64,000 nt of DNA from [Muricauda] lutisoli (nom. illeg.). Lineage in GTDB: Bacteria > Bacteroidota > Bacteroidia > Flavobacteriales > Flavobacteriaceae. This document shows positions 49,069 to 64,000 of this stretch, one piece after another. Location of the stretch: contig NZ_JAFLND010000001.1 in the NCBI RefSeq assembly GCF_017313105.1, forward strand, positions 1,455,600 to 1,519,599, in the 5' to 3' direction. Both the position numbers and the translations under genes were made by a program. Under the pieces are notes generated by a model that saw only the letters and a program-made list of their open reading frames with translations, did no database searches and was not told the DNA's origin. Each line of letters starts with the position of its first letter. The first letter of the stretch is position 1.

Positions 49069-50523
49069 TCAATAAATCTCTACATTGGAAATCACGGGAC
49101 TTCCAAGAGCTTCGGTTATTTCCACTTTTATTTTAGAAGTGTTGGTTCCATTCAGGGGTAAAATTCTTTTGTAGCCAATCGTTGTTTCATTGCCTACTTC
49201 TTTCCAATCATTATCAACCCAAGCATATACTTTAAACGCGACCACTCGCTGCCCAAGGGCTATATGCTCCTGAACAACTAAATAGTTTAGTTTTTGGGCC
49301 GTATCCATCTCAATTTGAAATGATGCTTCGGTTATTTCATCGTCTGTGGCCCAATAAGTGTTATCGTCTCCGTCGGTCAAGTTCAATGGGGAGAACCTTT
49401 TGTCGTTACCCCTAAATGTGCTGGCCACAACTTTTGTGGATCTGGCTAAATTATTTTGAAAAACACTGTCCAAAATCTTTCTAAAACCTTGTAATGCCTC
49501 CACATCATTTTCATGGAACAATCCCCTTGTATCCGGGGGAATATTTAAAAGTAAGGTAGAGCCCCTTCCCACAGAGGTAAGGTAGCGCTCAAACAAATTT
49601 TCGGGGGTTCTTACCAAGCTATCCTCAGCTTTGTGGTAAAACCATCCCGGTCTTATGGATACATCAACTTCGGCGGGAATCCATTCACTCCCCCCTTTGG
49701 TACCATGTTGCAATAATTCTTCAATGCCGGATTTACCTGCATATAGCGTATCGGGGGTAATGGTATTCCAATTGGTTTTTCCAGCAATACCTCGCTCATT
49801 GCCCACCCATCGTAAACTTGGACCTGCATCGCTAAAAAATAATACTTGTGGTTGTATGGAATCGACCATTTTCAATGTTGTGGGCCAATCATAGTAATTC
49901 TCTCTATCGATTGTCCTTGTTTCTCGAGCACCTCCGTAATAACCATCACCACCATTGGCTCCATCAAACCACATTTCAAAGACAGGTCCGTAACCGGTAA
50001 AGAGTTCTTTGAGCTGATTTCGGTAATACTCAACATAAGAATCTTGCCCATAATCGGAGTGGTTCCTGTCCCAAGGAGATAGGTAAACCCCAAATTTGAG
50101 TCCATGTGCCGCGGCTGATTCCGATACTGATTTTACAATATCCCCATTACCCGATTCAAACGGACTATTCTTAATGGAATGCTCGGTATAGGCCGATGGC
50201 CATAAAGCGAACCCATCGTGATGCTTTGCTGTTAAGATAACTCCCTTGAAACCCGTATTTTTTAACACTTTCATCCATTGATCCGCATTGTATGATGTTG
50301 GGTTGAAGAGTTCCGGAGATTCATCGCCATACCCCCATTCCTTATCGGTAAAAGTGTTTATGGTGAAATGGATAAATGCATTCATTTCCATTTGGTGCCA
50401 GGCCAATTGTTCTTCAGAAGGAATGGGTCCGAGCGGTGCGGGAGGTTGGACCATGTTCTCTTTTTGACATGATACATAGGCCAAAGAAACAATTATGATA
50501 AAAGCGTAAATAAGGTTCCTCAT
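49069..50523 (-). CDS. Alpha-L-fucosidase GH29 lipoprotein, 484 aa
   Basis: Lipoprotein signal (SLAYVSCQKEN). GH29 catalytic domain about 30-350 with the hallmark AKHHDGFALWPS and the nucleophile region MWFDGANG. The C-terminal 130 residues form an F5/8-type discoidin carbohydrate-binding domain (DNTYWATDDE, beta-rich). It would cleave terminal alpha-fucose from external glycans. ATG 50523 was chosen so that the signal peptide is N-terminal. Convergent with the Gfo/Idh operon. Confidence 0.92.
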   Translation of the reverse strand: MRNLIYAFIIIVSLAYVSCQKENMVQPPAPLGPIPSEEQLAWHQMEMNAFIHFTINTFTDKEWGYGDESPELFNPTSYNADQWMKVLKNTGFKGVILTAKHHDGFALWPSAYTEHSIKNSPFESGNGDIVKSVSESAAAHGLKFGVYLSPWDRNHSDYGQDSYVEYYRNQLKELFTGYGPVFEMWFDGANGGDGYYGGARETRTIDRENYYDWPTTLKMVDSIQPQVLFFSDAGPSLRWVGNERGIAGKTNWNTITPDTLYAGKSGIEELLQHGTKGGSEWIPAEVDVSIRPGWFYHKAEDSLVRTPENLFERYLTSVGRGSTLLLNIPPDTRGLFHENDVEALQGFRKILDSVFQNNLARSTKVVASTFRGNDKRFSPLNLTDGDDNTYWATDDEITEASFQIEMDTAQKLNYLVVQEHIALGQRVVAFKVYAWVDNDWKEVGNETTIGYKRILPLNGTNTSKIKVEITEALGSPVISNVEIY

Positions 50524-50681
50524 GATAAGTGGTTTATCCAATTTGGAGCTATTTGCTCAAAGATGGCATCAAGATACTCAAATCGCTTTATTCCACCTCG
50601 TGGTTTTATGGACTGGATCTCCCAAAAACCTTTGCTGCCTCCTATCAAATTTATAATCAAAAATTAGAAGTTAGGGAAAAG

Positions 50682-51303: not shown

Positions 51304-51981
51304 TTATTGAGCTTTTTTTAATCCCTTTATTAACAACCATATAGTAAAGGAAAATTCCCCTACTACCCCGAACAGTACCACCATTAATTCAAAAAATTGG
51401 TCATAGTCAGTGTAACCGGGCAATACCAGTTTTGCTGAACAACTCACCAAATACCCCAAAGCTGCCAAAAGCAATAAATAGCCAATACTTTTTGGAATTA
51501 TAGTGGACTTGACGGACAAATACCCCAAAAACGCAAGGTGAACTCCAAAAAATAACAATCCAAGCGTCCATACCCCATCAAATCTTTCCAGTGAATGCAT
51601 AATGCAGTCCTCCAGGTTTACCCCCATACCAATAGGATTAACCGTTATTAGGTAAATCCTTATCAAACTTATCAGAGCAATGCCGAAACCAATGGCATGT
51701 AACATTCGAAACACGGAGGCCACTATCGTTAGTTTTCGGTTTGTCTGCTTAGTTAAAGGATACAAGGAAAACACAAGGACTACATCAAAAATAAGCATAT
51801 CCAAAAAAGCTAAAATGCCACTTCCCAATCTCGTGCGTTGTCCTATGAAGTTGGCAACGGTCACATCAACATTATCGGGTACAACCATAGTTTCTAAAAT
51901 GGAAAAATTGGCGTAAAACCCCGTTATGAAAATCATAAGGTAACTTAAACCCGATATCACTAATGCTTTTCTAAGATCCAT
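51304..51981 (-). CDS. DUF4386 integral membrane protein, 225 aa
   Basis: Six hydrophobic segments (for example ALVISGLSYLMIFITGFYA at the N-terminus and VVLFGVVGEFSFTIWLLI at the end) in the DUF4386 arrangement. ATG 51981 has a good RBS (AAGGAAT) and fits the TM topology; the upstream ATG 52062 would add 27 polar residues and would precede the promoter found at 52012-52059. Function unknown; its promoter carries the regional TTTCTTAA-type element. Confidence 0.8.
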   Translation of the reverse strand: MDLRKALVISGLSYLMIFITGFYANFSILETMVVPDNVDVTVANFIGQRTRLGSGILAFLDMLIFDVVLVFSLYPLTKQTNRKLTIVASVFRMLHAIGFGIALISLIRIYLITVNPIGMGVNLEDCIMHSLERFDGVWTLGLLFFGVHLAFLGYLSVKSTIIPKSIGYLLLLAALGYLVSCSAKLVLPGYTDYDQFFELMVVLFGVVGEFSFTIWLLIKGLKKAQ

Positions 51982-52011
51982 GATATTCCTTTTTGATTTA
52001 AAAAATGTATG

Positions 52012-52059
52012 TAAAGGTAGATCGAATTGATTTTCAATATATTGACTTTGGTTAAGAAG
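52012..52059 (-). promoter_or_regulatory. TTTCTTAA-type element and -7 element for the DUF4386 gene
   Basis: On the minus strand: CTTCTTAA-N7-CAA (52042-52059), then exactly 22 bp, then TACCTTTA (52012-52019; 5 of 6 bases of TAnnTTTG). Shares TTGACTTTrGTTAAGAA with the promoter at 59845 (17 bases, one difference). Confidence 0.7.
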
Positions 52060-52160
52060 CACTTTAAAAATAAAAAGTTACTTGTTGACATGAACATTAA
52101 TTGGCCACAAAGTCTTTCGTCCATTAACTTTTATTAATTTTCTGAATCAATTTCTGGGTT

Positions 52161-52739
52161 TTGGATATAAAGGAAATACTGTTATCACATTTAAGGGAAA
52201 CTATTGTTTTAAATACCGAAGAGGAATCCATAGTGCTTGATAGTTATACGGAAAGGCACCTTAAAAAGAAAGAGGTCTTGCTTTTTGCCGGGGAAGTGTC
52301 CAACCACATGCGGTTTATTGCTGAGGGCAGTTTACGAGCTTACCATATGGATGAAGAGGCCAAGGAGCATATTGTACAATTTGGTATTGAAGGCTGGTGG
52401 GTAAACGACCTCTACAGTTATTTAACGGAAACTCCCGCTAAACAATTTGTGCAGGCTATAGAACCAACCATTGTGTTGCAAATACACCGAGACACACTGA
52501 ACAAACTTTATGAAAAAGTTCCCGCCATTGAACGATTCTATAGATTAAAGTTTGAAAAGGCCTATGTTGCCTTACAGGACCGTACCATTAACTCTATGAG
52601 CAAATCGGCCGAAGAGCGCTATTTGGAATTTAGGTCAAAGTATAGGAGCATTGAGCAGCGTGTTCCACAATACATGGTTGCTTCCTATTTGGGCATCACC
52701 CCAGAGTTTTTGAGCGCCCTTCGAAAAAAGATCAAGTAA
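52161..52739 (+). CDS. Crp/Fnr-family transcriptional regulator, 192 aa, variant recognition helix
   Basis: cNMP-binding-like barrel (LLFAGEVSNHMRFIAEGSL, about 35-125) plus HTH (RVPQYMVASYLGITPEFLSALRKKI). The recognition helix PEFLSALR keeps Glu and Ser but has Ala where Fnr and Crp have Arg, so it should read a different operator from TGA/TCA. The start is TTG 52161: an in-frame stop at 52143 leaves no ATG before it. It lies between promoters with the TTTCTTAA element and is my candidate for its activator. Confidence 0.85.
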   Translation: MDIKEILLSHLRETIVLNTEEESIVLDSYTERHLKKKEVLLFAGEVSNHMRFIAEGSLRAYHMDEEAKEHIVQFGIEGWWVNDLYSYLTETPAKQFVQAIEPTIVLQIHRDTLNKLYEKVPAIERFYRLKFEKAYVALQDRTINSMSKSAEERYLEFRSKYRSIEQRVPQYMVASYLGITPEFLSALRKKIK

Positions 52740-52744
52740 TACCC

Positions 52745-52792
52745 TTTCTTAATACACCTTAAGATTAACGGTTTTTCCCTGTAATAGGTTTG
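52745..52792 (+). promoter_or_regulatory. TTTCTTAA-type element and perfect -7 element for the flavin reductase gene
   Basis: TTTCTTAA-N7-TAA (52745-52762; core palindrome CTTAA-N6-TTAAG at 52748-52763), 22 bp, then TAGGTTTG (52785-52792), a perfect TAnnTTTG. The start codon is at 52817, giving a leader of about 18 bp. Confidence 0.8.
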
Positions 52793-52816
52793 CGTTGACA
52801 TACAAATCAGCGCATT

Positions 52817-53440
52817 ATGAAAAAAATTATTGCATTTACCGGAAGTACCAGTCACCATTCCATAAACCGAAAACTCCTAAAATATATTATAAGGGAATTC
52901 CCGAACGATGGAATAGAATTTCTTGATCTTAAGGAGTACGACATTCCAATCTACAGTACTGAAATTGAGAAAAAAGGAATTCCGATTTGGACCAAAGAAC
53001 TTTTTCAAACTTTTGCCTCAGCAGATGGATTTATTTTAGCTTCTCCTGAGCATAATGGACTTCCATCCGCTTTTTTAAAAAACCATATCGACTGGCTTTC
53101 AAGAGTAGACCAACGCTTTTTGCAAGACAAGCCGATTTTATTGTTGAGCACTTCACCAGGGGCCACCGGAGGTAAATCGCATTTAGAAATTTTGGGAAAA
53201 TTGGTCCAGCGATGGGGCGGTGAACTGGTGGGCCAATTTTCTTTGGGCGACTTTTATCGAAATTTTGACTGCCACACCAATACGCTCTGTAAATCAAAAG
53301 ATGAACAGTCGTTGAAACAGTTAATCGAATCCCTTTTGAATTATCAAAAACAACCAAAGGAGAGTTATAGGACCCAAAGGGAAATTGAACTTTTCCTGAG
53401 CAAAATTGTGGACCAATATAAAAACAAAGGTTACTTATAA
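52817..53440 (+). CDS. NAD(P)H-dependent FMN reductase, 207 aa
   Basis: Flavodoxin-like fold: an N-terminal phosphate loop FTGSTSHHSINRK, then SPEHNGLPSAFLKNHIDWLSR (the family's conserved PEYN-like motif) and LSTSPGATGG. NADPH-dependent FMN reductase family, similar to azoreductase/quinone reductase YhdA. It is the first gene of a unit with the GNAT gene (10 bp gap) and has the regional boxed promoter. Confidence 0.9.
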   Translation: MKKIIAFTGSTSHHSINRKLLKYIIREFPNDGIEFLDLKEYDIPIYSTEIEKKGIPIWTKELFQTFASADGFILASPEHNGLPSAFLKNHIDWLSRVDQRFLQDKPILLLSTSPGATGGKSHLEILGKLVQRWGGELVGQFSLGDFYRNFDCHTNTLCKSKDEQSLKQLIESLLNYQKQPKESYRTQREIELFLSKIVDQYKNKGYL

Positions 53441-53450
53441 AATTGAAACC

Positions 53451-54179
53451 ATGAACAAAGCAATTATTAATCACTTATTCGAGTTTTGGACCCAAATAGG
53501 AAAGCAAGGTGGATTCCTAACCAAGGAAAATGGTCTTTTGTTTACAAACCCTTTAAACAACTCATGGCCAAGTAAGGTTTTTGATATTGATCATGAAAAA
53601 CTGGACATTGATGACCTACGTAGAAAAATCGGTTTTGGAGCGATACCGAATTCGATTGCAACCTATGAGGACGATACCATAAAAACCATTCTGGAATCCC
53701 ATCAATTTAGACGCTCTTCCAAAATCAAGGCGATGGCTTTGGATACTTTCGGAGTCCTCTTTGAGGATATAAATGAAACCGAGTTTATAACTGTAAGCAC
53801 TAATGACGAAGCTAAAACATTTGCAGATGTCGCCTCCGAATCTTTTGGCTACCCTGTTAAAGCATCCACCATCATCCCATTAATTGACAAGCCTTCATTC
53901 AAAATCATTTTGGGAAAACACGATAAGGGTATCCCCACATGCGGTATGGTCTATATTGATGAAAATGGCGTTGCCGGTATACACATGATCGGCACTAAAG
54001 GAGCCTATAGAGGATTGGGGCTTGGAAAAAAAATGACCCAATTCTTGATCAATCAATCCATAAAAGCCCAGAGCAGGAAGGTCTTTCTTGTTGCATCTGA
54101 AGCCGGGGAAAGAATATACACTAAAATGGGATTCACCTCCCATGGGTTTTTGGAGAGTTATTCCTTACCTTTAGAATAA
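53451..54179 (+). CDS. GNAT-family N-acetyltransferase, 242 aa
   Basis: C-terminal acetyltransferase domain with the acetyl-CoA-binding motif GTKGAYRGLGLGKKM (Q/R-x-x-G-x-G type). The N-terminal 110 residues are divergent. ATG 53451 was chosen since it directly follows the flavin reductase (10 bp). Substrate unknown; co-transcription with a flavin reductase suggests a detoxification or modification role. Confidence 0.85.
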   Translation: MNKAIINHLFEFWTQIGKQGGFLTKENGLLFTNPLNNSWPSKVFDIDHEKLDIDDLRRKIGFGAIPNSIATYEDDTIKTILESHQFRRSSKIKAMALDTFGVLFEDINETEFITVSTNDEAKTFADVASESFGYPVKASTIIPLIDKPSFKIILGKHDKGIPTCGMVYIDENGVAGIHMIGTKGAYRGLGLGKKMTQFLINQSIKAQSRKVFLVASEAGERIYTKMGFTSHGFLESYSLPLE

Positions 54180-54249
54180 CACCACACACCCCCATTTCTT
54201 TGACTTTTAGAAGATATCTTACAGTTTTAGGAAATAAAAAACACTCAGT

Positions 54250-54549
54250 ATGTATGCGGTAATATATCAGTTTGATGTTGTCCCTGGTCTTGAAAAAGAC
54301 TTTGAGAGAACATGGCAGCTTGCAACAGAGTCGTTTATAGCACATGCCGGAGGGCTTGGCTCCAGGCTCCATAAAAATGAGGCGGGCAGCTATATAGCCT
54401 ATGCCCAATGGCCAAACAAGAATTGCTGGGAGTCCGCTAGACAAAAATTGCCGAAAACAGCTCTAGAAAACCTGCAACGGATGAATGAGTATTGTGAGGG
54501 AATTACAGTACTGTTCAATATGGAAGTGAAAAAAGATTTACTGTTGTAA
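54250..54549 (+). CDS. Antibiotic biosynthesis monooxygenase (ABM) domain protein, 99 aa
   Basis: Small dimeric alpha-beta barrel of the ABM family: N-terminal YAVIYQFDVVPGLEKDFERTW, then YIAYAQWPNKN. ABM proteins include quinol monooxygenases (YgiN) and haem-degrading enzymes. A TTTCTT...AAGAT sequence at 54195-54215 resembles the neighbouring boxed promoters but lacks the correct spacing to a -7 element. Convergent with the membrane protein at 54555. Confidence 0.85.
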   Translation: MYAVIYQFDVVPGLEKDFERTWQLATESFIAHAGGLGSRLHKNEAGSYIAYAQWPNKNCWESARQKLPKTALENLQRMNEYCEGITVLFNMEVKKDLLL

Positions 54550-54554
54550 AAATA

Positions 54555-54977
54555 TCAATTCAACCTTTTTGCAGGTCTTAGGTAAGTCAATACTACCAGT
54601 AAAATAATCTGAATTGCCAGTACAATTATTTTGGGATTGATTTCCTGATAGTTTACAAAAAGTGCAGCATGCATGGCTATATAAATCCACAACAGGTAGA
54701 ATCCCCATTTGCCACGCGCTATAATACCTACCGCCCCTGCTGTTAGCAAAATACCCATTACCAGGATATAGGCAAAATATCCTGAAGTAGTAAAAGGGAC
54801 CAACTGTTTACTTGAACGAGCATTTATAAATTTTTCAACCTCTAAAGTAGCGTCATTAAGCTCTTCAAAACTTATTATTTCCGATGTTTGAGCAAGCAAT
54901 ACGGTACCGACACCAATTCGAATAATCCCATATCCCAGTAATAGAATCAATATTATAAGTCCTATTTTATTTTTCAT
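54555..54977 (-). CDS. Membrane protein of unknown function, 140 aa
   Basis: Four hydrophobic segments: IGLIILILLLGYGIIRIGV (2-22), YILVMGILLTAGAVGII (70-87), WGFYLLWIYIAMHAALF (91-108) and IIVLAIQIILLVVLTYL (116-133). A 25-45 residue polar loop follows the first helix. No family recognised. It is the last gene of the minus-strand operon (52 bp after the SnoaL-like gene) or has its own promoter. Confidence 0.7.
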   Translation of the reverse strand: MKNKIGLIILILLLGYGIIRIGVGTVLLAQTSEIISFEELNDATLEVEKFINARSSKQLVPFTTSGYFAYILVMGILLTAGAVGIIARGKWGFYLLWIYIAMHAALFVNYQEINPKIIVLAIQIILLVVLTYLRPAKRLN

Positions 54978-55029
54978 TTTTGATTGATTGATTTTTAGAT
55001 TTCGTTTTATTAATTATTCCTTCAAAAGG

Positions 55030-55491
55030 CTACCAATACTCGGTAATCCTATAAATTTTTCCATCCTTAAACTCAAAAAGAGCCATTTGGGCCTCTCCCT
55101 CCACTATTTTGTCTTCCTCTTTTTTTATGAAACGTTTGCTGACGGCAATGGCATTCAGCCCAACAATTTTATTTTCCATTTTGATATCGACCACACTGCC
55201 ATCATAACCACCATTGTTCTGGTTGCGTATGTAACCGTTGTATAGATCTTCCCTGGTGTATACTCCTCCATATTGGGGATGCACATAAGTAAAATCGTTG
55301 GTAAACAGTTCAAAGATATTGTCAACGTCTTCTGGAGTCGAGTCTGCTTGAAAAACCTTTAGGTTTAATTTGTAGTATTGATCCAATATAAGATTTAAGG
55401 GATCTTTATTTGTATGTGATGGATCCTGAGCATTGATTTGATTAAAAGTAATACTCAATAATAATATGCCTTGGATGTATTTAAGCTTCAT
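55030..55491 (-). CDS. Exported SnoaL/NTF2-like protein, 153 aa
   Basis: Signal peptide (IQGILLLSITFNQINAQ), then a single NTF2-like domain: LDQYYKLNLKVF, NIFELFTNDFTYVHP, VVDIKMENKIVGLNAIAVSKR and FEFKDGKIYRITEYW at the end. Such domains bind small hydrophobic ligands or catalyse simple isomerisations. Fifth gene of the hydrolase operon, 4 bp after the esterase. Confidence 0.85.
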   Translation of the reverse strand: MKLKYIQGILLLSITFNQINAQDPSHTNKDPLNLILDQYYKLNLKVFQADSTPEDVDNIFELFTNDFTYVHPQYGGVYTREDLYNGYIRNQNNGGYDGSVVDIKMENKIVGLNAIAVSKRFIKKEEDKIVEGEAQMALFEFKDGKIYRITEYW

Positions 55492-55495
55492 TTCT

Positions 55496-56638
55496 CTATT
55501 GTTTTTTGGTCAAGTGTTGGATTGCATTCTTTTTTTTGGTCAACAAGCTTTCTGAATTCGGATACTTTTTCAACAAAAGATCATATAGTTCAATTGCTTC
55601 CTGAAACCGATTGTTTTTTTCATAAAATGTGGCTATTTGGGATACGGCATAGTCCCTATTTTCTATCAACTCTTGTATAAATACATCTTTATCCATGGAA
55701 TTCAACAAGGTTTCAAAATGATAAAAATCATCGGCCCGCATAGCACTGCGAACAATGGTAAAACGCGACCATAGCGAAAGATTAGGTTCAAACCCATAGC
55801 GCTTGGCCCTTTCCCGAGCATGATTCAAAGCATACGCCATACCTCCCGCATTGATAAATTTTATCAGGTTGTTCGTTTCAAACTCCTGATAATATTTAAA
55901 ATAGTCCCGCAATCCATGGTACAAGGTGGGATACCCTGTGGAACGGTGTTCTTCCAGTTCAAACTCAAAATATTTCCAGTCAAGCCCATCAATGGGGTTC
56001 GATGTCAGTTTTCTGTTCAATTTTTCAGTACTGTGCATCACATCATACTCATCGGGGCTTACCGCAAAATAAAGCTGGGTTTCCATGTTGGATGAAGTGT
56101 CCAAATCATCAATAGCATCAAAAATCGGGAATGGACTGGCCATCAAATAGGCATTAAAAAGTGTAGGGTGGTCCATCATCATATGAAAAACAAAGCTTCC
56201 GCCATATTCCCAACCAAAAAGCAGGTTTTCTCCCTTGGTTCTGAAGTTTTCGTTCACATAGGGCATCAATTCATCTTTTAAAAAGCCCTTGAAATTTTCC
56301 TTTTCCTTCCCAAAATGCCCAAACCTGTTGGGATAACTATTGTTAATCCCCACAATAATAAATTCGGGGGCCAGTTTAAATTGTTGGAACGATTGGCTGA
56401 GGCTGACCACGTGTAAAAAGAAACGTTGCCCATCCAACACATAAACCACGGGGTATGTTTTGTCAGAATCTTGATAGTCTGGCGGCAAATAAATCTGAAC
56501 TCCCCGCTCTTCATTCAATATTTTAGAGGAAAGAAGGTGGTTGGTGCCGACTACATTCGGAATACCCTCCGATTGAGCTTGTACACCAAAAAACATCAAA
56601 ACAATCGCAATGGTCGCCGTTATTACTTTCATTTTCAT
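55496..56638 (-). CDS. Esterase-fold (alpha/beta hydrolase) exported protein lacking the nucleophile Ser, 380 aa
   Basis: Signal peptide, then an esterase D/IroE-type alpha/beta hydrolase domain (about 30-270): GVQIYLPPDYQDSD, YPVVYVLDGQRF, ELMPYVNENFRT. The nucleophile elbow, normally GxSxGG, reads GWEYGGSF, so the catalytic Ser is replaced by Glu. The C-terminal region (about 280-380) has tetratricopeptide-like helices (AIELYDLLLKKYPNSESL). It may be a pseudoenzyme or use another nucleophile. Fourth gene of the operon. Confidence 0.8.
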   Translation of the reverse strand: MKMKVITATIAIVLMFFGVQAQSEGIPNVVGTNHLLSSKILNEERGVQIYLPPDYQDSDKTYPVVYVLDGQRFFLHVVSLSQSFQQFKLAPEFIIVGINNSYPNRFGHFGKEKENFKGFLKDELMPYVNENFRTKGENLLFGWEYGGSFVFHMMMDHPTLFNAYLMASPFPIFDAIDDLDTSSNMETQLYFAVSPDEYDVMHSTEKLNRKLTSNPIDGLDWKYFEFELEEHRSTGYPTLYHGLRDYFKYYQEFETNNLIKFINAGGMAYALNHARERAKRYGFEPNLSLWSRFTIVRSAMRADDFYHFETLLNSMDKDVFIQELIENRDYAVSQIATFYEKNNRFQEAIELYDLLLKKYPNSESLLTKKKNAIQHLTKKQ

Positions 56639-56647
56639 AGTAGAAGA

Positions 56648-56992
56648 TTATACCATGGTTTTGTTACAATAGGTCGCTTTCTCAAAATCCCTGATGTTTA
56701 TCGAAATAATAGGAACTTCGGGGAACATACCTTTGAGTTCAGAAACAATTCGCTTTGATAAATTGGCCTTTTGTTGAGTAGTTCTCCCTTCCATGATGTT
56801 TCCAAAAATGTGGATGAAGTCATCCTTTGCATTCCCAACCATATAGTGTTCAAAGGGATTGATTCGCACCTTGATATCATTAGGGTCAAAAAGACCTGTG
56901 GATTTAGCGGTATCATAAACCAATTGCATTATCGATTCCGGGGATTGAGATTTAATGACCGTATTGGAACAGTCCAGCACAAAATGTGGCAT
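56648..56992 (-). CDS. 5-carboxymethyl-2-hydroxymuconate isomerase-like protein, 114 aa
   Basis: Tautomerase-superfamily member with the N-terminal Pro after Met (MPHFVLDCSN) typical of HpaF/CHMI, and the conserved HIFGNIMEGRT region. HpaF isomerises 5-carboxymethyl-2-hydroxymuconate in homoprotocatechuate catabolism, but no other hpa genes are present, so the substrate here may differ. Third gene of the operon, between the amidohydrolase (24 bp) and esterase (9 bp). Confidence 0.82.
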   Translation of the reverse strand: MPHFVLDCSNTVIKSQSPESIMQLVYDTAKSTGLFDPNDIKVRINPFEHYMVGNAKDDFIHIFGNIMEGRTTQQKANLSKRIVSELKGMFPEVPIISINIRDFEKATYCNKTMV

Positions 56993-57016
56993 AGGTATTT
57001 TAATTTATTTGAGTTT

Positions 57017-58345
57017 TCAATGATTTAGCGATTCAACTTCTTTTAAAAAGCTGTCCAATTGGTCTCGACCCAACCACTCCCCTTTCAACAGTACACCTTC
57101 AATCGTTTTGGTGTTTTTAATATCTTCCAACGGGTTTTTGTTCAACAGGACCAAATTGGCATTTTTTCCTTCGGTAATAGTACCCTCCGTAGCAATAGAA
57201 CCCAAATATCGGGCAGGTGTCAATGCACTGGCCTTAAGTATTTCGTAGGGAGATAGACCAGCTTCTTGAAGAAATTGAAATTCTTCGTGCAAGGAAAATC
57301 CGGGTACCACAAAACCAAAAGTATCGCTTCCGGTCATCATGGGAACATCTTTTTTTGCCAACATTTTGGTAAAATTCTTCATCCATTCAAAGTAACCTTC
57401 CAACAATGGCAATGCATCCATTCCGTTGATCACCTTACCTTTTAAATTTTGACGATAGGGATTATCGTCCGATGCCCAATACCCATGATCTCCGTTCAGC
57501 ATATATGTTGCGACTTCTTTTTCCTTAAGTTTTGCAAAGCTATTGTCGTCCAAACATTTTACGATCATATCAAAAACCACCAAGGTCGGTACAATGACAA
57601 TTCCGCTGTTTTTAATCTGCTCTACGGCATTTTTCAGGAATAGACTATCCCTTCTTTGTTCATCACCGAACAAATACACAAACTCCTCTACATGTTCAAT
57701 GGATTTCATCCGAAGCGAATACTCCAAGTCCATCTCACGCTGGGCATGCCCCATCACGGGAATATTATAGTCGGCTGCCCTCTCAAGAACTTTCAGATAG
57801 ATATCCTTCGGAAGATTATCCGCGATTTTTATAAAGTCATATCCTTTGTTGTAATGCTGTGCTATGATGCGCTCTATATCTGCACTGGTTTTTAGATCCC
57901 CAGACTGCAAATAGGGTCCCGAAGTATAGTAATTTGGGCCCATTAATTGGTTTTTGTCTATACTATCCCTAATGGCAATATGATCTTGCCAATCGTACTC
58001 AGCCATGTTCCGTACCGTGGTAACTCCGTTGGCCAAAAGCAATTTGAAATCACGTTCAATCCCTCCTTCCTTGTTGCGCCAATGGTAATGCATTTCATGC
58101 AATCCGGGAATCAGGTATTTGCCGGAACCATCAATCTGCTTGGCCATGGGATATTCCGATGCCTTTGACACGTCTTCAATACGAAGTATCTTTCCATTCC
58201 CAACAACCACCCTCTGATTGCGGAGAAGGATGTTCTCGTATACTGGAATTATATTGACATTCTCGATGGAAAGCGTATCGGTTTGGGCAAAACCGGCCGT
58301 AAGTCCGAATATGATCAGGGTTAAATTGATGATTGTTGTTTTCAT
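57017..58345 (-). CDS. Exported amidohydrolase, 442 aa
   Basis: Signal peptide (LTLIIFGLTAGFAQT), then the amidohydrolase TIM barrel with the metal motif GLHEMHYHW, MGHAQREMD and GSDTFGFVVPG (Asp ligand), and a C-terminal NLVLLNKNPLEDI segment of the imidazolonepropionase-like group. It would hydrolyse a cyclic amide or related ring in the periplasm. Second gene of the operon: 4 bp after the class C-like hydrolase and 24 bp before the CHMI-like gene. Confidence 0.88.
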   Translation of the reverse strand: MKTTIINLTLIIFGLTAGFAQTDTLSIENVNIIPVYENILLRNQRVVVGNGKILRIEDVSKASEYPMAKQIDGSGKYLIPGLHEMHYHWRNKEGGIERDFKLLLANGVTTVRNMAEYDWQDHIAIRDSIDKNQLMGPNYYTSGPYLQSGDLKTSADIERIIAQHYNKGYDFIKIADNLPKDIYLKVLERAADYNIPVMGHAQREMDLEYSLRMKSIEHVEEFVYLFGDEQRRDSLFLKNAVEQIKNSGIVIVPTLVVFDMIVKCLDDNSFAKLKEKEVATYMLNGDHGYWASDDNPYRQNLKGKVINGMDALPLLEGYFEWMKNFTKMLAKKDVPMMTGSDTFGFVVPGFSLHEEFQFLQEAGLSPYEILKASALTPARYLGSIATEGTITEGKNANLVLLNKNPLEDIKNTKTIEGVLLKGEWLGRDQLDSFLKEVESLNH

Positions 58346-58349
58346 GATT

Positions 58350-59777
58350 TTAATTGATTGATGATGAATTGATTTTTTTGAACCACAGGTTTTTTACCCT
58401 ACCTGTGGATATATGGAGACCGATTACTTCTCCTTTTTGATTACGTGACATCTTGATGCTTTCCAGAGGCCAGGAACTTTTGAACACATCAGGTCCCTCT
58501 ACTTCCATTGTAAATTCTCCATGGCGCCCGTGGGAACATTTTAAGGTATCGCCTTCTAAGTAAAATGTATAATGGGCATCTATTTCCGGACTATAAAATG
58601 TACCTGTGCAATCAGTCAGCTCCATGGAACTTTCCTGTTGCCTTATTTCATTTTGATGCGCTGAACGAACAAACGGTTGCATTTTTCCCCTGGTTTCTGA
58701 TAGTAAAACACCTGCAATGTCATCGGCCCGCTCTCCAAATGGTGCATTGGAAAAATTGGTCGATACAACAATGCTCAATTCTTCTTCGGGATATGTACAA
58801 AGGAAAGTCCGATATCCCCCTACAACACCAGCATGCTGTATCCGTTTTTTACCGAACATTTCATCGATATAAACACCATAGGCATAGTTGATAGGGTCGC
58901 CATTGGTTAAACCGCCCAATGTTTGAAGAATGGCAAAAGATTGTTCCCATCCAGCTTTGGGGTTATAAAAGTTATGGGCCCACTTTAATAAATCCTCAGC
59001 AGTGGAATACATATTTCCCGCACCGGTATAGGCCCAATAGGCCTGCGCCATTTCAAAAACCTTATCGTGGCTATGGTAGTACGATGTGGCTCTGTTGGAG
59101 ACAATGTGCTGATTATTATCCTCCACATAGGTTCGCTTTAGTTGTAGCGGTTCAAAAACATTGTTTTGCATCCATACTTTGAAATCCTCTCCCGTAACTT
59201 TTTCAATAATTTCGGCCAGCACAACATATCCCGTGTTGGAATACATAAACTTTTCGCCTGGTTTAAAATTCAAATCCGTTTGCATTTGTAGCAACCTTAC
59301 TACATCCCCATTGGTTCTATAGTCATCGCCCCGCCAACCGGCAAGTGCCATTAATTCGTGAAAGTCCCTTAATCCACTTGTATGCTGCAATACATGTTTT
59401 AGGGTAATGGGATTACTGAAAATTGGAAACTCAGGGAAATACTTTTGAACCTTATCATCAACAGACAATAGTCCTTTTTGTTGAAGAAGCACAATCCCCA
59501 TTGCCGTGAATTGTTTTGATATGGATCCAATATTGAACAAGGTGGACCTGTTATTGGGAACCTTATATTCCAAGCTGGCATTCCCAAAAGCGTTTAAGTA
59601 TGTAATCTCTCCGGATTTCATAACCCCCACTACTCCACCGGGGTGATTGTCCAGATTCCAATCATTGAAAAATGCATCAATCCGGCTTTCCTCTTTGATG
59701 TCGGTCTGACCAAAACCAAATATGGGACAAACCAACATGACCCAAATGAATAGGTGCTGACACCCAAGAACTTGCAT
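58350..59777 (-). CDS. Exported serine hydrolase (beta-lactamase/PBP class C fold), 475 aa
   Basis: Signal peptide (FIWVMLVCPIFGFGQ), then SISK (SxxK, around 85-90), YSNTGY (YxN) and HAGVVGGY (the KTG-like third motif). A C-terminal lipocalin-like tail (about 380-475) is typical of this group. Likely a serine peptidase or esterase of the class C beta-lactamase family. Start set at ATG 59777: the promoter at 59815-59862 puts transcription at about 59810, only 3 bp before the alternative ATG 59807. First gene of the five-gene operon. Confidence 0.87.
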   Translation of the reverse strand: MQVLGCQHLFIWVMLVCPIFGFGQTDIKEESRIDAFFNDWNLDNHPGGVVGVMKSGEITYLNAFGNASLEYKVPNNRSTLFNIGSISKQFTAMGIVLLQQKGLLSVDDKVQKYFPEFPIFSNPITLKHVLQHTSGLRDFHELMALAGWRGDDYRTNGDVVRLLQMQTDLNFKPGEKFMYSNTGYVVLAEIIEKVTGEDFKVWMQNNVFEPLQLKRTYVEDNNQHIVSNRATSYYHSHDKVFEMAQAYWAYTGAGNMYSTAEDLLKWAHNFYNPKAGWEQSFAILQTLGGLTNGDPINYAYGVYIDEMFGKKRIQHAGVVGGYRTFLCTYPEEELSIVVSTNFSNAPFGERADDIAGVLLSETRGKMQPFVRSAHQNEIRQQESSMELTDCTGTFYSPEIDAHYTFYLEGDTLKCSHGRHGEFTMEVEGPDVFKSSWPLESIKMSRNQKGEVIGLHISTGRVKNLWFKKINSSSIN

Positions 59778-59814
59778 CAACTTGTATGTACTATGTGAAT
59801 CCTTCATAATTCAA

Positions 59815-59862
59815 CAAAACTATTTTGTGGCAATGTGTTGTCCATTGACTTTAGTTAAGAAA
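59815..59862 (-). promoter_or_regulatory. TTTCTTAA-type element and perfect -7 element for the five-gene hydrolase operon
   Basis: On the minus strand: TTTCTTAA-N7-CAA (59845-59862), 22 bp, then TAGTTTTG (59815-59822), a perfect TAnnTTTG. The divergent promoter for the YdcZ-like operon lies 53 bp away with the same element. Confidence 0.8.
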
Positions 59863-59914
59863 TTCGATTTATCTGATTGACCAGAAATCAAAATTAGACC
59901 TATGCCCTTTCCTA

Positions 59915-59962
59915 TTTCTTAATGTACTTTAAGATTTCTCGAAAGCTTTCCACCTAGTTTTG
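59915..59962 (+). promoter_or_regulatory. TTTCTTAA-type element and perfect -7 element for the YdcZ/nitroreductase operon
   Basis: TTTCTTAA-N7-TAA (59915-59932; core CTTAA-N6-TTAAG at 59918-59933), 22 bp, then TAGTTTTG (59955-59962), a perfect TAnnTTTG. Palindrome centre to -7 centre is 33 bp. Confidence 0.82.
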
Positions 59963-59982
59963 TGACATCAAAAAGAGAAGTC

Positions 59983-60432
59983 ATGAACCAGTATATCAAC
60001 ATTTTATTGGCTTTTATCGGCGGCGTGTTTTTGGCCATGCAGGGGGGATTGAACGCACAACTTGGTGTTCAGCTCAAAAATCCGCTATTAGCTTCACTGA
60101 CGGCCTTCTTTTTTAGCATGCTCTTCGCATTGTTGGCCGTTGTGCTAAGTGTCAAAAACATACCAAAGACATCTCTTTTGCTCAGTATTCCCAAGCATTT
60201 ATGGTTCACCGGAGCCTTGTTCAGTGTCATCGGAATAGGGCTTTATTACTATACCATTCCCAAACTGGGCATATCCACCATGATTTCCTTGGGATTGTTC
60301 GGACAACTCATTTTTTCGGCAATAGCTGGGCATTACGGATGGTTTGGGCTGCCCGAAGAACCGATGGTGGTCAAAAAAGTATTGGGCCTATTGGCCATGA
60401 CCCTTGGCATTTTATTGATCAATAAAAGCTAG
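59983..60432 (+). CDS. YdcZ/DUF606-type small membrane transporter, 149 aa
   Basis: Five hydrophobic segments, an N-terminal GGVFLAMQGGLNAQLG motif and a C-terminal PLAMTLGILLI-like helix, as in the DMT-like DUF606 (YdcZ) family. Predicted drug or metabolite exporter of the cytoplasmic membrane. ATG 59983 has a fair RBS (AGAGAAG); the alternative GTG 59962 falls inside the -7 element. First gene of the three-gene plus-strand operon. Confidence 0.85.
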   Translation: MNQYINILLAFIGGVFLAMQGGLNAQLGVQLKNPLLASLTAFFFSMLFALLAVVLSVKNIPKTSLLLSIPKHLWFTGALFSVIGIGLYYYTIPKLGISTMISLGLFGQLIFSAIAGHYGWFGLPEEPMVVKKVLGLLAMTLGILLINKS

Positions 60433-60470
60433 AAAGAAGTAACGGATAAAATAATTTAAAAACGAAGACT

Positions 60471-61100
60471 ATGGAATTATTGGAAAACTTGAAATGGCGT
60501 TATGCGACTAAAAAGTTTGATTCATCCAAATCTATCAACAAAGATGATTTGGAAAAACTAAAGCAGGCCGTACAACTATCGGTATCATCTTACGGCCTAC
60601 AACTGTACAAGGTTTTAATCATACAAAACAAAGAGTTGAAAAAGGAACTACGGGAAGCCGCTTGGAACCAGTCCCAATTGACGGATGCCTCACATATTTT
60701 TGTGTTCTGCAATTATACGGAAAGAGACAACCGAGACATTGATGCTTTTATCGAAGCAACCTCCAAAATACAAAATACTCCATTGGAAAAATTAGAGGGG
60801 TACGGAGATTTTATTAAAACGAGTCTCTCCTCAAAGCCTATTAAAGAGTGGCAAAACTGGTCGGAAAAACAAACCTACTTGGCACTTTCCAATCTTTTGA
60901 CAGCATGTGCGGAACTTAAAATCGATTCCTGCCCAATGGAAGGATTTGAGCAAGAAAAATTCAACTCCATTTTAGGTCTTGATCAAAAAGGGTTGAATGC
61001 GGCAGTAATAGCTCCGGTCGGGTATCGATCCGAAGAAGACCATACACAATTCAGAAAAAAAGTTCGTAAGCCCAAAGAAATATTGTTCGAGGAAATTTAA
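60471..61100 (+). CDS. Nitroreductase-family oxidoreductase, 209 aa
   Basis: FMN-dependent nitroreductase fold: the N-terminal KWRYATKKFDSSK carries the FMN-phosphate Arg, and the C-terminal AVIAPVGYRSEED is the usual GYR motif. NfsB/YdgI-like enzymes reduce nitroaromatics and quinones with NAD(P)H. It is second in the operon after the YdcZ-like transporter (38-bp gap). Confidence 0.9.
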   Translation: MELLENLKWRYATKKFDSSKSINKDDLEKLKQAVQLSVSSYGLQLYKVLIIQNKELKKELREAAWNQSQLTDASHIFVFCNYTERDNRDIDAFIEATSKIQNTPLEKLEGYGDFIKTSLSSKPIKEWQNWSEKQTYLALSNLLTACAELKIDSCPMEGFEQEKFNSILGLDQKGLNAAVIAPVGYRSEEDHTQFRKKVRKPKEILFEEI

Positions 61101-61198
61101 CAATGTGTTTATCCTGGATGGAATCCCGAGTTAAAGAAAAATGTAACCTATCCTGGAGTTTGTTCGTCAAAACCTTAAATCAAAAAACAAATCAATTT

Positions 61199-62686
61199 AT
61201 GAGACTGTTATTCTTATTGACCCTAATACTTAGTACTTATTCCTGTGGAACAAGCAAAGGCATATCCTCGGAAAACACGGGCAAATTCAAGGACCAACAC
61301 CCAGAATTTTCATCTCGATTTCAAAGCAAGGCAATAGAAATCTATCAGGAAAAAGAGCTGTACGGGGATTTCATATTTGCGGTGGTCGACGAAAATGGCT
61401 TAGCATATTCATTTGCACTGAACAGGGAAATTCTAGATGGTGAAGCATCATCTTTGGACAACGATGCTCCTTTATATATTGCATCAAGTACAAAATCCTT
61501 CACAGGAACATTGCTCAAAATTTTAGAGCAAAAAAATGTATTGGATTTGAACAAATCCCTTCAAGAATATCTTCCACAACTGAATTATAGCGACAGTATT
61601 GATACCGGGAACATTTCCATTAAAAATCTTTTAAACCATACCCATGGAACCTTTAGCACCAGCATGACCTGGAAAACAGCCTTTTTAGGGTATAGCGGTG
61701 GTAACGAAGAATTAATTGAAGACCTGAACACAGATTTCCTATTCGACCCTTCCGGTAATTATCGATATTCTAATGTGGGACCGATCATAGCTGGGATGGT
61801 TGCAGAAAATGTAACGGGAAAAACATGGAAAGCGTTGATGGAGGAACATATCTTCACCCCTTTGCAAATGGAAAGCACCAGTGCCAACATCAGTGACTAT
61901 GCTATTGAAAACATTCGCCCTTCATTGACTGTTACCAAAGAAAGAGGAATTGTTGAGAAAGGTATCTATAAATCGGAGATCACCATGCATGCCTCTGGAG
62001 GAATCATCTCAACCATAAACGATCTATCAAAATGGTTGGCAGCAAATATCAATCAGGATAATGTACTATTGAACAAAGGTTCATGGTCCGACCTTCACAC
62101 TGCAACAACCGCTCAGGACAAAAAGTACTATACGTACCAACGGAATGGCTATAGTTTGGGTTGGGACATTGCGGAATATCAAAACAACAAGATTTTGACC
62201 CGATTTGGAGGATTGGCCGGCATTAGCTTTCATATCTCTTTTATGCCCGATAAAAAAGTAGGAATCATCGCCTTTTCAAATGATAACAGAGCATACCTAT
62301 TGCCTCATTTGATGGCAAATTATGGCTATAATCTAATCAACAAGCAATCTGCGGACAGTATTCTGAATATTGAAAAAACAGGACTTGATAAAAGTTTTGA
62401 AAGGGAGGATGACATCCAATATCCTAATGATTCAGAATTGCTTATCGCCAACAATGATAACGAAAGTATTGTCGGCACCTATAAAAGCACCACAAACTGG
62501 CCCACCATTGAAATTTACAGGGAAGATGACCACTACATTTTTAATTGGGGGGTATTAAAGGGTAAAATATTCGGAAATGATAAGGGTGGTTACAGTAGCT
62601 ATCTCGGGGTTTTATCAAGAAACTTTAAAATAAGCAACGACACGCTTAAAACAGGTTCCTTGGTATATGAAAAAGTGAAATCCTAG
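61199..62686 (+). CDS. Serine hydrolase lipoprotein (beta-lactamase class C fold), 495 aa
   Basis: Lipoprotein signal LSTYSCGTSK with ATG 61199; an upstream frame extension (to 61103) is not convincing. Motifs: SSTKS (SxxK), YSNVGP (YxN) and RFGGLAG in place of the canonical third motif. A C-terminal DUF3471/lipocalin-like tail follows (about 400-495). It lies 98 bp after the nitroreductase gene, so it could be co-transcribed or have an extra promoter. Paralogue of the first gene of the divergent operon, so the divergent pair is built of similar hydrolases. Confidence 0.85.
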   Translation: MRLLFLLTLILSTYSCGTSKGISSENTGKFKDQHPEFSSRFQSKAIEIYQEKELYGDFIFAVVDENGLAYSFALNREILDGEASSLDNDAPLYIASSTKSFTGTLLKILEQKNVLDLNKSLQEYLPQLNYSDSIDTGNISIKNLLNHTHGTFSTSMTWKTAFLGYSGGNEELIEDLNTDFLFDPSGNYRYSNVGPIIAGMVAENVTGKTWKALMEEHIFTPLQMESTSANISDYAIENIRPSLTVTKERGIVEKGIYKSEITMHASGGIISTINDLSKWLAANINQDNVLLNKGSWSDLHTATTAQDKKYYTYQRNGYSLGWDIAEYQNNKILTRFGGLAGISFHISFMPDKKVGIIAFSNDNRAYLLPHLMANYGYNLINKQSADSILNIEKTGLDKSFEREDDIQYPNDSELLIANNDNESIVGTYKSTTNWPTIEIYREDDHYIFNWGVLKGKIFGNDKGGYSSYLGVLSRNFKISNDTLKTGSLVYEKVKS

Positions 62687-62818: not shown

Positions 62819-63349
62819 TCAAGACATCAACAAAGTCATCATTCGTTCAAATTTATCTTGATATTCAACAGCAAGTGTTTTTGTGTCTTTGGCGTACAAA
62901 TCCTGTATAACAATAGGTACGCTATAAGGTAAAGTCCAAGCCCTCAGGGTATTGGCAACTACGCGCATATTATCCACGCCTGTTGAGGCATTTCCGCCGT
63001 AGGCCCAGCAAATCAAAGCTACTTTTATGTGACTCAGATAAGGTTCTTTCTCTCGAGCACTTACAATCAACCAATCCAAACAGTTTTTCATAGCGCCCGT
63101 CATTCCTCCATGGTACAGGGGACTGAACCATATATGTCTTTCACAACTGCGGAACAGCTCCACCATTTTTAATACCGATGGGGGAACGCCCTCGCTATCT
63201 TCAGAAAAAAAAGGAATGCTGTTTTCGGCCAAATTAAAAACCACTACTTCAACACCCATGCCTTGCAAGGTTGCTTTAAAATAATCAACGATGTGGTTGG
63301 CGGCATTGGATTTGGTAGAATTTGTTCCGTTAAAAACAAGTACTCTCAT
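62819..63349 (-). CDS. NAD(P)H-dependent FMN reductase-like flavoprotein, 176 aa
   Basis: Flavodoxin-like fold with FNGTNSTKSNAANHI (phosphate loop) and SPLYHGGMTGAMKNCLDWL, the family's PxYHGG-like motif around the flavin ring. Similar to ArsH/NADPH-dependent FMN reductases. It is the second such flavoprotein in 11 kb. Monocistronic on the minus strand; I find no TTTCTTAA-type element upstream. Confidence 0.85.
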   Translation of the reverse strand: MRVLVFNGTNSTKSNAANHIVDYFKATLQGMGVEVVVFNLAENSIPFFSEDSEGVPPSVLKMVELFRSCERHIWFSPLYHGGMTGAMKNCLDWLIVSAREKEPYLSHIKVALICWAYGGNASTGVDNMRVVANTLRAWTLPYSVPIVIQDLYAKDTKTLAVEYQDKFERMMTLLMS

Positions 63350-63494: not shown

Positions 63495-64000
63495 TTATGA
63501 TATGGCCGCTAGATAACGTTTTTCCACTTCTTTCCAATTCACAAGGTTCCAAAATGCATCGATATACTCCGGTCTCTTGTTTTGATAGTTCAAGTAATAT
63601 GCATGTTCCCAAACATCCAGGGCCAAAATTGGAGTTCCCTGGTCCGAAGCCGTATCCATTAATGGGTTATCCTGGTTTGGTGTAGAAGTAACTTTTAAGT
63701 TGCCGTGCGTATCAACAATCAACCAAGCCCAACCTGAACCAAAACGGGTCGCCGCAGCATTGGAGAAGCTTGTTTTAAGCTCATCCAAGGAACCAAATGT
63801 TTTATCTATTGCCTTGGACAAAGTGGCTGGCATTTCAGAACCGTTTGGTGTTAATATGGTCCAGAATAAACAGTGGTTATAGTGGCCTCCACCATTATTT
63901 CTAATCGCAGTGGACAGTTTTGATATTTTTCCAAAAAGGCTATTCAGGTCCGTGCCCTCAATACCTGACTCTTCCAAAGCAGCATTTAATTTGTTTACAT
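63495..64000 (-). CDS. sodA: Mn-type superoxide dismutase, C-terminal part (5' end outside the window)
   Basis: Frame open to the right edge (residues [12 protein letters not shown] enter from outside). Metal-binding context [11 protein letters not shown] (His), DVWEHAYYL (Asp and His), and the Mn-type outer-sphere Gln in NQDNPLM; the Gly at GGGH is also Mn-type. Fe/Mn-SOD family, expected to be Mn-dependent or cambialistic. About 168 residues visible of about 200. The true start lies beyond 64000. Confidence 0.93.

Follow-up and report, generated by a model that had tools for sequence, protein, structure and literature searches.

Two neighbouring Crp/Fnr-type paralogues and two classes of predicted palindromic operator in a flavobacterial gene cluster

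The Escherichia coli regulator CRP binds the palindrome TGTGA-N6-TCACA, which at class II promoters is centred at -41.5, while E. coli FNR, with a recognition helix of the pattern E..SR, binds TTGAT-N4-ATCAA. For the short Crp/Fnr paralogues of Bacteroidota, targets and signals are described in the literature searched only for BT4338 (Crp/MalR) of Bacteroides thetaiotaomicron. The available text of the reports on BT4338 presents it as seemingly not cyclic AMP (cAMP)-sensing and marks a site for it upstream of a putative -7 element at fusA2 (PMC3878776, PMC6989115). In F. psychrophilum, another flavobacterium, the -7 element TAnnTTTG occupies positions -12 to -5, according to the accessible part of the source (PMC9723704). 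Here we describe a 64,000-nucleotide (nt) stretch (the window) from the marine flavobacterium [Muricauda] lutisoli, contig NZ_JAFLND010000001.1, positions 1,455,600 to 1,519,599. In this stretch an earlier note had reported four promoters sharing an 18-base-pair (bp) element at a constant 22-bp distance from the -7 element, and had proposed a single regulon. It seems likely, from the comparisons below, that five promoters in the window and one distant gene for a glyoxalase-fold protein are instead wired by two class II activators, paralogues that each have an operator of their own.

The composite scanned in the window, YTTCTTAA-N7-YAA-N22-TAnnTTTR, was derived from the four sites themselves, so that the stronger tests are those in relatives. 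It has four matches in the window, at 52012-52059 (-), 52745-52792 (+), 59815-59862 (-) and 59915-59962 (+), and none in 100 dinucleotide shuffles. When gaps of 0 to 60 bp were scanned, all four 18-bp elements had a -7 element, TAnnTTT(G/A), at a gap of exactly 22, and 300 shuffles with any of the 61 gaps allowed gave a mean of 0.02 element/-7 matches and a maximum of 2. The signal is the fixed spacing and not the element by itself: the 18-bp element alone (up to one mismatch) occurs in the window at chance (9 found, 8.75 expected), and the palindrome alone (up to two mismatches) occurs there below chance (33 found, 51 expected). For the genome (3.42 Mb, six contigs), a palindrome-type composite, CTTAA-N6-TYAA-N20-23-TAnnTTTG, was scanned with the reversed pattern as control. 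There were five matches, four of them inside the window, and none for the control; two of the window matches are one palindrome read both ways, and the DUF4386 site is missing from the five because its -7 element ends in A. Relaxed searches gave no excess, neither for the palindromic composite with up to two mismatches genome-wide (8, control 13) nor, within the window, for the window composite with up to three mismatches (40 matches against 38 expected). There is therefore no wide regulon, and the composite is local in the genome. Several claims of the earlier note were borne out by these counts, namely the constant 22-bp distance at four promoters, three perfect -7 elements (the exception being TACCTTTA at DUF4386), the palindrome CTTAA-N6-TTAAG in two promoters, which are those of flavin reductase and YdcZ, and a motif that is not randomly distributed in the genome. 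The four elements are two different sequences in two copies each, referred to below as class A and class B.

Class A is the palindrome CTTAA-N6-TTAAG, most commonly in the form CTTAAGnTAnCTTAAG, and its window copies stand at the flavin mononucleotide (FMN) reductase and YdcZ promoters. The first of these follows one of two short Crp/Fnr-type regulator genes, whose products are named Crp1 and Crp2 for convenience (Table 1). Comparison was made with 80 loci containing relatives of Crp2 (L-numbers) and with 60 genomes of the same genus (G-numbers). In the 80 loci, class A with up to one mismatch combined with TAnnTTTG gave 50 matches (reversed control 0), with a gap of 21 in 49 and of 22 in one, although these hits are interdependent, the loci being related and two-sided palindromes being counted twice. 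An unbiased count, which took in all 16-bp palindromes before any TAnnTTTG in the same loci, peaked with 31 at gap 21, and other gaps had 0-4. The palindrome begins 5-29 nt past the regulator's last aligned codon in 45 of 48 Crp2 relatives (at least 54% identity), and 43 of the 48 additionally have a -7 element (up to one mismatch) at gap 21, which strengthens the tie to an adjacent Crp-type protein suggested earlier. The genes behind this Crp2-end operator vary, with FMN reductase in many loci. In L078 and L076 a secreted unknown protein is followed by a small membrane protein of a kind assigned to DoxX by Pfam in L038; L048 has a putative cyclase and then YdcZ, and L069 has an MFS transporter.

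Two further uses of class A were found. Read leftward, the palindrome ahead of YdcZ faces a further -7 element, TAATTTTG, also with a gap of 21, which makes a fifth promoter. Such two-sided sites occur in 8 of the 60 same-genus genomes (G000, G002, G005, G016, G019, G047, G052, G054) and, with up to one mismatch, in L043, L044, L049 and L098. In L043 and L049, which have no Crp1 in the locus examined, DUF4386 is the left-side gene of the two-sided site and seems to have exchanged class B control for class A. Another class A copy in the genome lies far from crp2, ahead of a gene for a secreted glyoxalase-fold protein (PF00903); the perfect class A composites in the genome number four, at three distinct sites. 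Among relatives of the glyoxalase-fold gene the operator is kept in seven of eight distinct loci besides its own, or in five of six once loci fetched because of the motif are set aside, and those five have 1-2 mismatches over palindrome and -7 element, with gap 21 in all.

With a gap of 21 and TAnnTTTG at -12 to -5, the operator therefore falls at -49 to -34 and is centred at -41.5, a spacing that points to the position of a class II activator. In the proposed mechanism, of which binding, sign of control and transcription starts are all predictions, each neighbouring paralogue would bind its own palindrome at about -41.5, where the downstream half-site would stand in for the -33 box that Bacteroidota promoters have. 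Crp2 on class A would activate FMN reductase/GNAT, YdcZ/nitroreductase/hydrolase, the remote glyoxalase-fold gene and, from the other side of the symmetric YdcZ site, an additional distal promoter of the hydrolase operon, while Crp1 on class B (TTRAC-N4-GTYAA) would activate DUF4386 and the proximal hydrolase promoter. The signal would be an electrophile, quinone or xenobiotic; by annotation, a role in xenobiotic/quinone defence fits the targets and the extras seen in relatives (FMN reductase, nitroreductase, GNAT, YdcZ, MFS, DoxX, glyoxalase-fold). Position alone leaves the sign open, and Crp/Fnr proteins are able to repress. Regulators that block RNA polymerase from -41.5 and release it on signal are nevertheless rather unlikely, since repressor sites usually wander in position whereas the 21-bp spacing in 49 of 50 matches is what activation needs; moreover, the operator occupies the -33 box, and BT4338 is an activator.

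Class B, TTAACYAAAGTCAAT, is an imperfect palindrome, TTRAC-N4-GTYAA, which the promoter alignment across relatives places in the same register as class A. TTAACCAAAGTCAAT is invariant in five of five relatives before DUF4386 and in four of four before the hydrolase operon; the window's second copy differs once. Genome-wide, TTAACYAAAGTCAAT has two exact copies, both in the window, and one more with one mismatch (reversed control 0). The class B composite was found in 11 of the 60 same-genus genomes, again with no match for the reversed control, and a Crp1 homologue at E <= 1.6e-64 is present in exactly those 11. Seven further genomes with Crp1 homologues between 1.1e-49 and 1.6e-40 have no class B composite. 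In eight genomes (G011, G030, G033, G038, G039, G044, G053, G055) Crp2 is present, with no Crp1 match (E <= 1e-30) and no class B, while class B is present in G004 and G013, where Crp1 occurs but a close Crp2 does not. G013 has no class A match; G004 has two, one lying at the stop codon of a different Crp paralogue, and its class B site stands ahead of a gene unlike any in the window. Outside the genus, class B with up to two mismatches and a -7 element at gap 21 was found in L045, L048 and L055, all with Crp1 homologues; L046 has Crp1 and a class B-like sequence, but no -7 element at that gap. Across the 80 loci such class B-like matches number 22, with a -7 element at gap 21 in 12 and not in 10.

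These data also bear on whether one regulator, Crp2, might bind both classes, class B being a weak or asymmetric form of class A. Register and spacing are equal, CTTAA occurs in both classes in the window, and both classes are found within one intergenic region. This is quite unlikely, however, as class B (TTAACCAAAGTCAAT) is letter-identical across species while the interior of class A is variable, class B is absent from all eight Crp2-only genomes and present in both genomes with Crp1 and no close Crp2, and the recognition helices differ (PESLSR in Crp1, against PEFLSA). The single element and single regulon of the earlier note were thus a merger of two operators, separately conserved and tracking two regulators; the reality of the element, its activator-type distance and its tie to a Crp-type protein stand. 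It is hardly credible that the palindromes serve RNA polymerase as core-promoter elements or form hairpins where the transcript of the regulator gene ends, for although they adjoin the -33 position and, at Crp2, lie past the stop codon, the perfect class A composites are too rare in 3.42 Mb for a core element, no G+C-rich stem with a T-run is visible in the sequence (no dedicated terminator scan was made), and the fixed -7 distance, two-sided use and remote copy far from crp2 misfit a transcript end.

Several observations weigh against two activators with private operators. An operator was sought at Crp1's own stop codon and was not found. The figure of 1/C(60,11) = 2.9e-12 for the co-occurrence of class B and Crp1 ignores shared descent and is inflated because the comparison lies within one genus, and the E-value cut for Crp1 was set after both genome lists were known. 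In three of the 48 Crp2 relatives (L071, L074, L083) the stop-proximal palindrome is absent, being degraded, displaced or half only, and two others (L067, L069) have the palindrome without a recognisable -7 element. Among the seven distant homologues listed (40-47% identity), a CTTAA-type palindrome is present in two, with a different inner sequence. The class A composite also occurs in 6 of the 43 same-genus genomes without a close Crp2, where the reversed control gave two matches, both in G039; the CTTAA palindrome alone is therefore not unique to Crp2. In four of the six (G004, G036, G042, G045) one match lies at the stop codon of another Crp paralogue. In the other two, G007 and G032, the composites have the form CTTAAACTGGTTTAAG, at L271 (733) and L272 (1677); no Crp-like gene was found within the 2.4 kb examined around either match, and these may be remote targets of a paralogue. 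Finally, a perfect class B operator with its -7 element in G013 (L153, 1347-1545) faces the 3' end of crp1 across only about 150 bp; because this stretch is so short and holds no DUF4386, the site may be a relic, or it may drive a short transcript.

Both proteins carry the cyclic nucleotide (cNMP)-binding beta-roll (PF00027; Table 1). The AlphaFold2 model of Crp2, with a mean predicted local distance difference test (pLDDT) score of 95.3, matches Crp/Fnr structures over its whole length and includes the C-terminal winged helix-turn-helix of the superfamily; a Pfam scan gave no match to a helix-turn-helix family. The predicted operators have the expected two-fold symmetry, class A as a 5-N6-5 palindrome and class B imperfectly. 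The closest solved chain to Crp2 is PDB 3DN7, a cyclic nucleotide-binding regulator of Cytophaga hutchinsonii, for which a limited literature search aimed at it found no function, operator or ligand. Crp2 is without any cysteine and Crp1 is without an N-terminal cysteine cluster, and neither sequence has the cysteines for a 4Fe-4S cluster in what we take to be the FNR-type pattern. The Glu/Arg-Ser pair of the cAMP-type phosphate-binding cassette is likewise missing from the family alignment, which at the presumed position of that motif reads WWxNDLYSYLTQTPAxxFVQ, with no arginine. Given the lack of cysteine in Crp2 and of this arginine in the alignment, its signal is probably neither Fe-S/thiol redox nor cAMP. 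The annotated start of Crp2 is a TTG at 52161, and TTG also stands at the aligned position in relatives. Short Crp/Fnr paralogues are numerous in genomes of this group, with up to ten listed per genome (E <= 1e-20).

The wider family was studied in 232 distinct complete Crp-like genes from the collected loci, after removal of incomplete and duplicate genes; a small number of loci, among L263 and L267-L274, owed their retrieval to the motif itself. For the genes less than 54% identical to Crp2, 179 in number, palindrome starts were counted in 40-nt bins on either side of the point where the stop codon ends. The bin just before that point holds 52 of 177 genes and the one just after it 37 of 177, and each of the other 28 bins from -600 to +600 holds 3-12 genes. 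Counted by cluster, the gene-end palindrome is present in 20 of 38. The commonest gap to a -7 element (one mismatch allowed) is 21, with 11 clusters, and the runner-up gaps are 44 (five clusters) and 22 and 45 (three each). Operators in tandem, spaced by two helical turns, would account for a gap of 44, as after TKEFLSKI-type regulators. Regulators with that helix (L108, L109, L110, L114, L115) have GTTAATCTAGTTTAAC directly past the stop codon and a weaker second copy about 22 bp on, which in L110 lies 21 bp from a -7 element by hand count; cooperative tandem sites are possible there. In an independent later sample of 24 genomes of the class, own genome excluded (48 genes, some for longer proteins of other kinds), palindromes were found in 11 of 96 gene-end bins versus 54 of 1340 elsewhere (p = 0.003). 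Eight of the 48 genes have a close palindrome, four with a -7 element at gap 21; gaps of 49, 54 and 59 occur once each. In the set assembled around Crp2, then, a palindrome at the gene end is common; the tendency is less marked in the later, broader sample, in which 40 of 48 genes do not show it.

A relation between helix and half-site was examined in the 100 of the 232 genes with both a readable helix and a gene-end palindrome (123 have no palindrome and 9 no helix match). Where arginine follows the conserved serine, half-site position 4 is G in 14 of 18, and with other residues it is A in 76 of 82; taken once per cluster and helix type the counts are 9 of 12 versus 2 of 19 (p = 4.6e-4), from a pattern noticed before it was counted, among related clusters, with Crp2 included and some palindromes surely due to chance. 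These counts suggest that the half-site varies with the recognition helix. In Crp1, where the arginine is present, the two operator halves differ, being TTGAC and TTAAC. Nine genes encode an SRETLSR helix; three of them, all flavobacterial (L249, L283 and L284), have the E. coli CRP site TGTGA-N6-TCACA past the stop codon, and the other six are without it. On balance, the short Crp-like regulators of Bacteroidota may well be a large family of class II activators that act locally. Many of them would have their operator where their own gene ends, frequently across the stop codon, with the -7 element of the next gene 21 bp further on, and a readable code (arginine after serine for NTTGA, others for NTTAA) would allow many orphan targets to be predicted. 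If so, operator and recognition helix stand side by side in one sequence, and a protein-DNA code could therefore be read from genomes. No description of these operators or of the gene-end rule was found in the literature searched, most subscription journals being outside its coverage.

Table 1. Regulators, predicted operators, promoter elements and genes of the cluster, in window coordinates.
Feature	Position	Strand	Basis or remark
Crp1, short Crp/Fnr-type regulator, 191 amino acids	50713-51288	+	PF00027 1.7e-8; helix KPESLSRIRKR; proposed class B binder
DUF4386 membrane protein, putative class B target	51304-51981	-	PF14329
-7 element TACCTTTA of DUF4386 promoter	52012-52019	-	composite scan; imperfect, ends in A
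Class B operator TTAACCAAAGTCAAT (predicted)	52041-52055	-	identical in 5/5 aligned relatives; 1 of 2 perfect genome copies
Crp2, short Crp/Fnr-type regulator, 192 amino acids	52161-52739	+	PF00027 1e-12; proposed class A binder
Class A operator CTTAATACACCTTAAG (predicted), 8 nt past Crp2 stop	52748-52763	+	same position in 45/48 relatives
-7 element TAGGTTTG	52785-52792	+	composite scan; perfect
NADPH-dependent FMN reductase, putative first class A target	52817-53440	+	PF03358
GNAT acetyltransferase	53451-54179	+	PF13673 and others
ABM-domain protein, possibly in FMN reductase/GNAT operon	54250-54549	+	PF03992
Hydrolase operon, six genes	54555-59807	-	operon extent inferred from spacing
Small membrane protein (hydrolase operon)	54555-54977	-	
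SnoaL-like protein (hydrolase operon)	55030-55491	-	
Esterase (hydrolase operon)	55496-56638	-	
CHMI-like tautomerase (hydrolase operon)	56648-56992	-	
Amidohydrolase (hydrolase operon)	57017-58345	-	
Beta-lactamase-fold hydrolase (hydrolase operon)	58350-59807	-	
-7 element TAGTTTTG, proximal hydrolase promoter	59815-59822	-	composite scan; perfect
Class B operator TTAACTAAAGTCAAT (predicted)	59844-59858	-	TTAACCAAAGTCAAT in 4/4 aligned relatives
-7 element TAATTTTG, distal hydrolase promoter, leftward from shared class A operator	59889-59896	-	gap 21
Class A operator CTTAATGTACTTTAAG (predicted), common to two divergent promoters, gap 21 each side	59918-59933	.	two-sided form in relatives
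-7 element TAGTTTTG of YdcZ promoter	59955-59962	+	composite scan; perfect
YdcZ-type inner-membrane exporter	59983-60432	+	PF04657
Nitroreductase	60471-61100	+	PF00881
Beta-lactamase-fold hydrolase (YdcZ side)	61199-62686	+	PF00144

The cluster is adjoined by genes for an ArsH-like second FMN reductase (62819-63349, -) and an Fe/Mn superoxide dismutase (63495-63977, -); the class A and class B genome searches gave no site ahead of either. Beside the cluster lies an alpha-L-fucosidase gene with an F5/8 type C domain (49069-50541, -), which is present in L036 too.

A fixed place for the operator, at the gene end and 21 bp before the -7 element, would make the targets of many paralogues, and perhaps their code, readable from sequence, and would offer a simple rule for promoter activation in a phylum that has promoters unlike those of E. 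coli. It is, in addition, unusual for two divergent promoters to share a symmetric operator that lies at -41.5 of each. The predicted system resembles E. coli CRP in its Crp fold, 5-N6-5 palindrome and centre at -41.5, but has a CTTAA rather than a TGTGA half-site and the Bacteroidota -7 rather than a -10 element, and lacks the cAMP-site arginine in the alignment and a Pfam helix-turn-helix match. It recalls E. coli FNR in that PESLSR of Crp1 is similar to E..SR and TTGAC/TTAAC to the FNR half-sites, but differs in the absence of an N-terminal cysteine cluster from Crp1 and of any cysteine from Crp2. BT4338, as far as the available text of its reports goes, is like the proposed regulators a Crp-family activator of Bacteroidota, and its palindrome, TATGTTnTAnAACATA, shares the central TA found here but has a different half-site; it governs a global carbon regulon of up to 30 genes, in contrast to the local regulon predicted here, and its proposed site lies upstream of its own gene, while class A lies downstream of the regulator (PMC3878776, PMC6989115).

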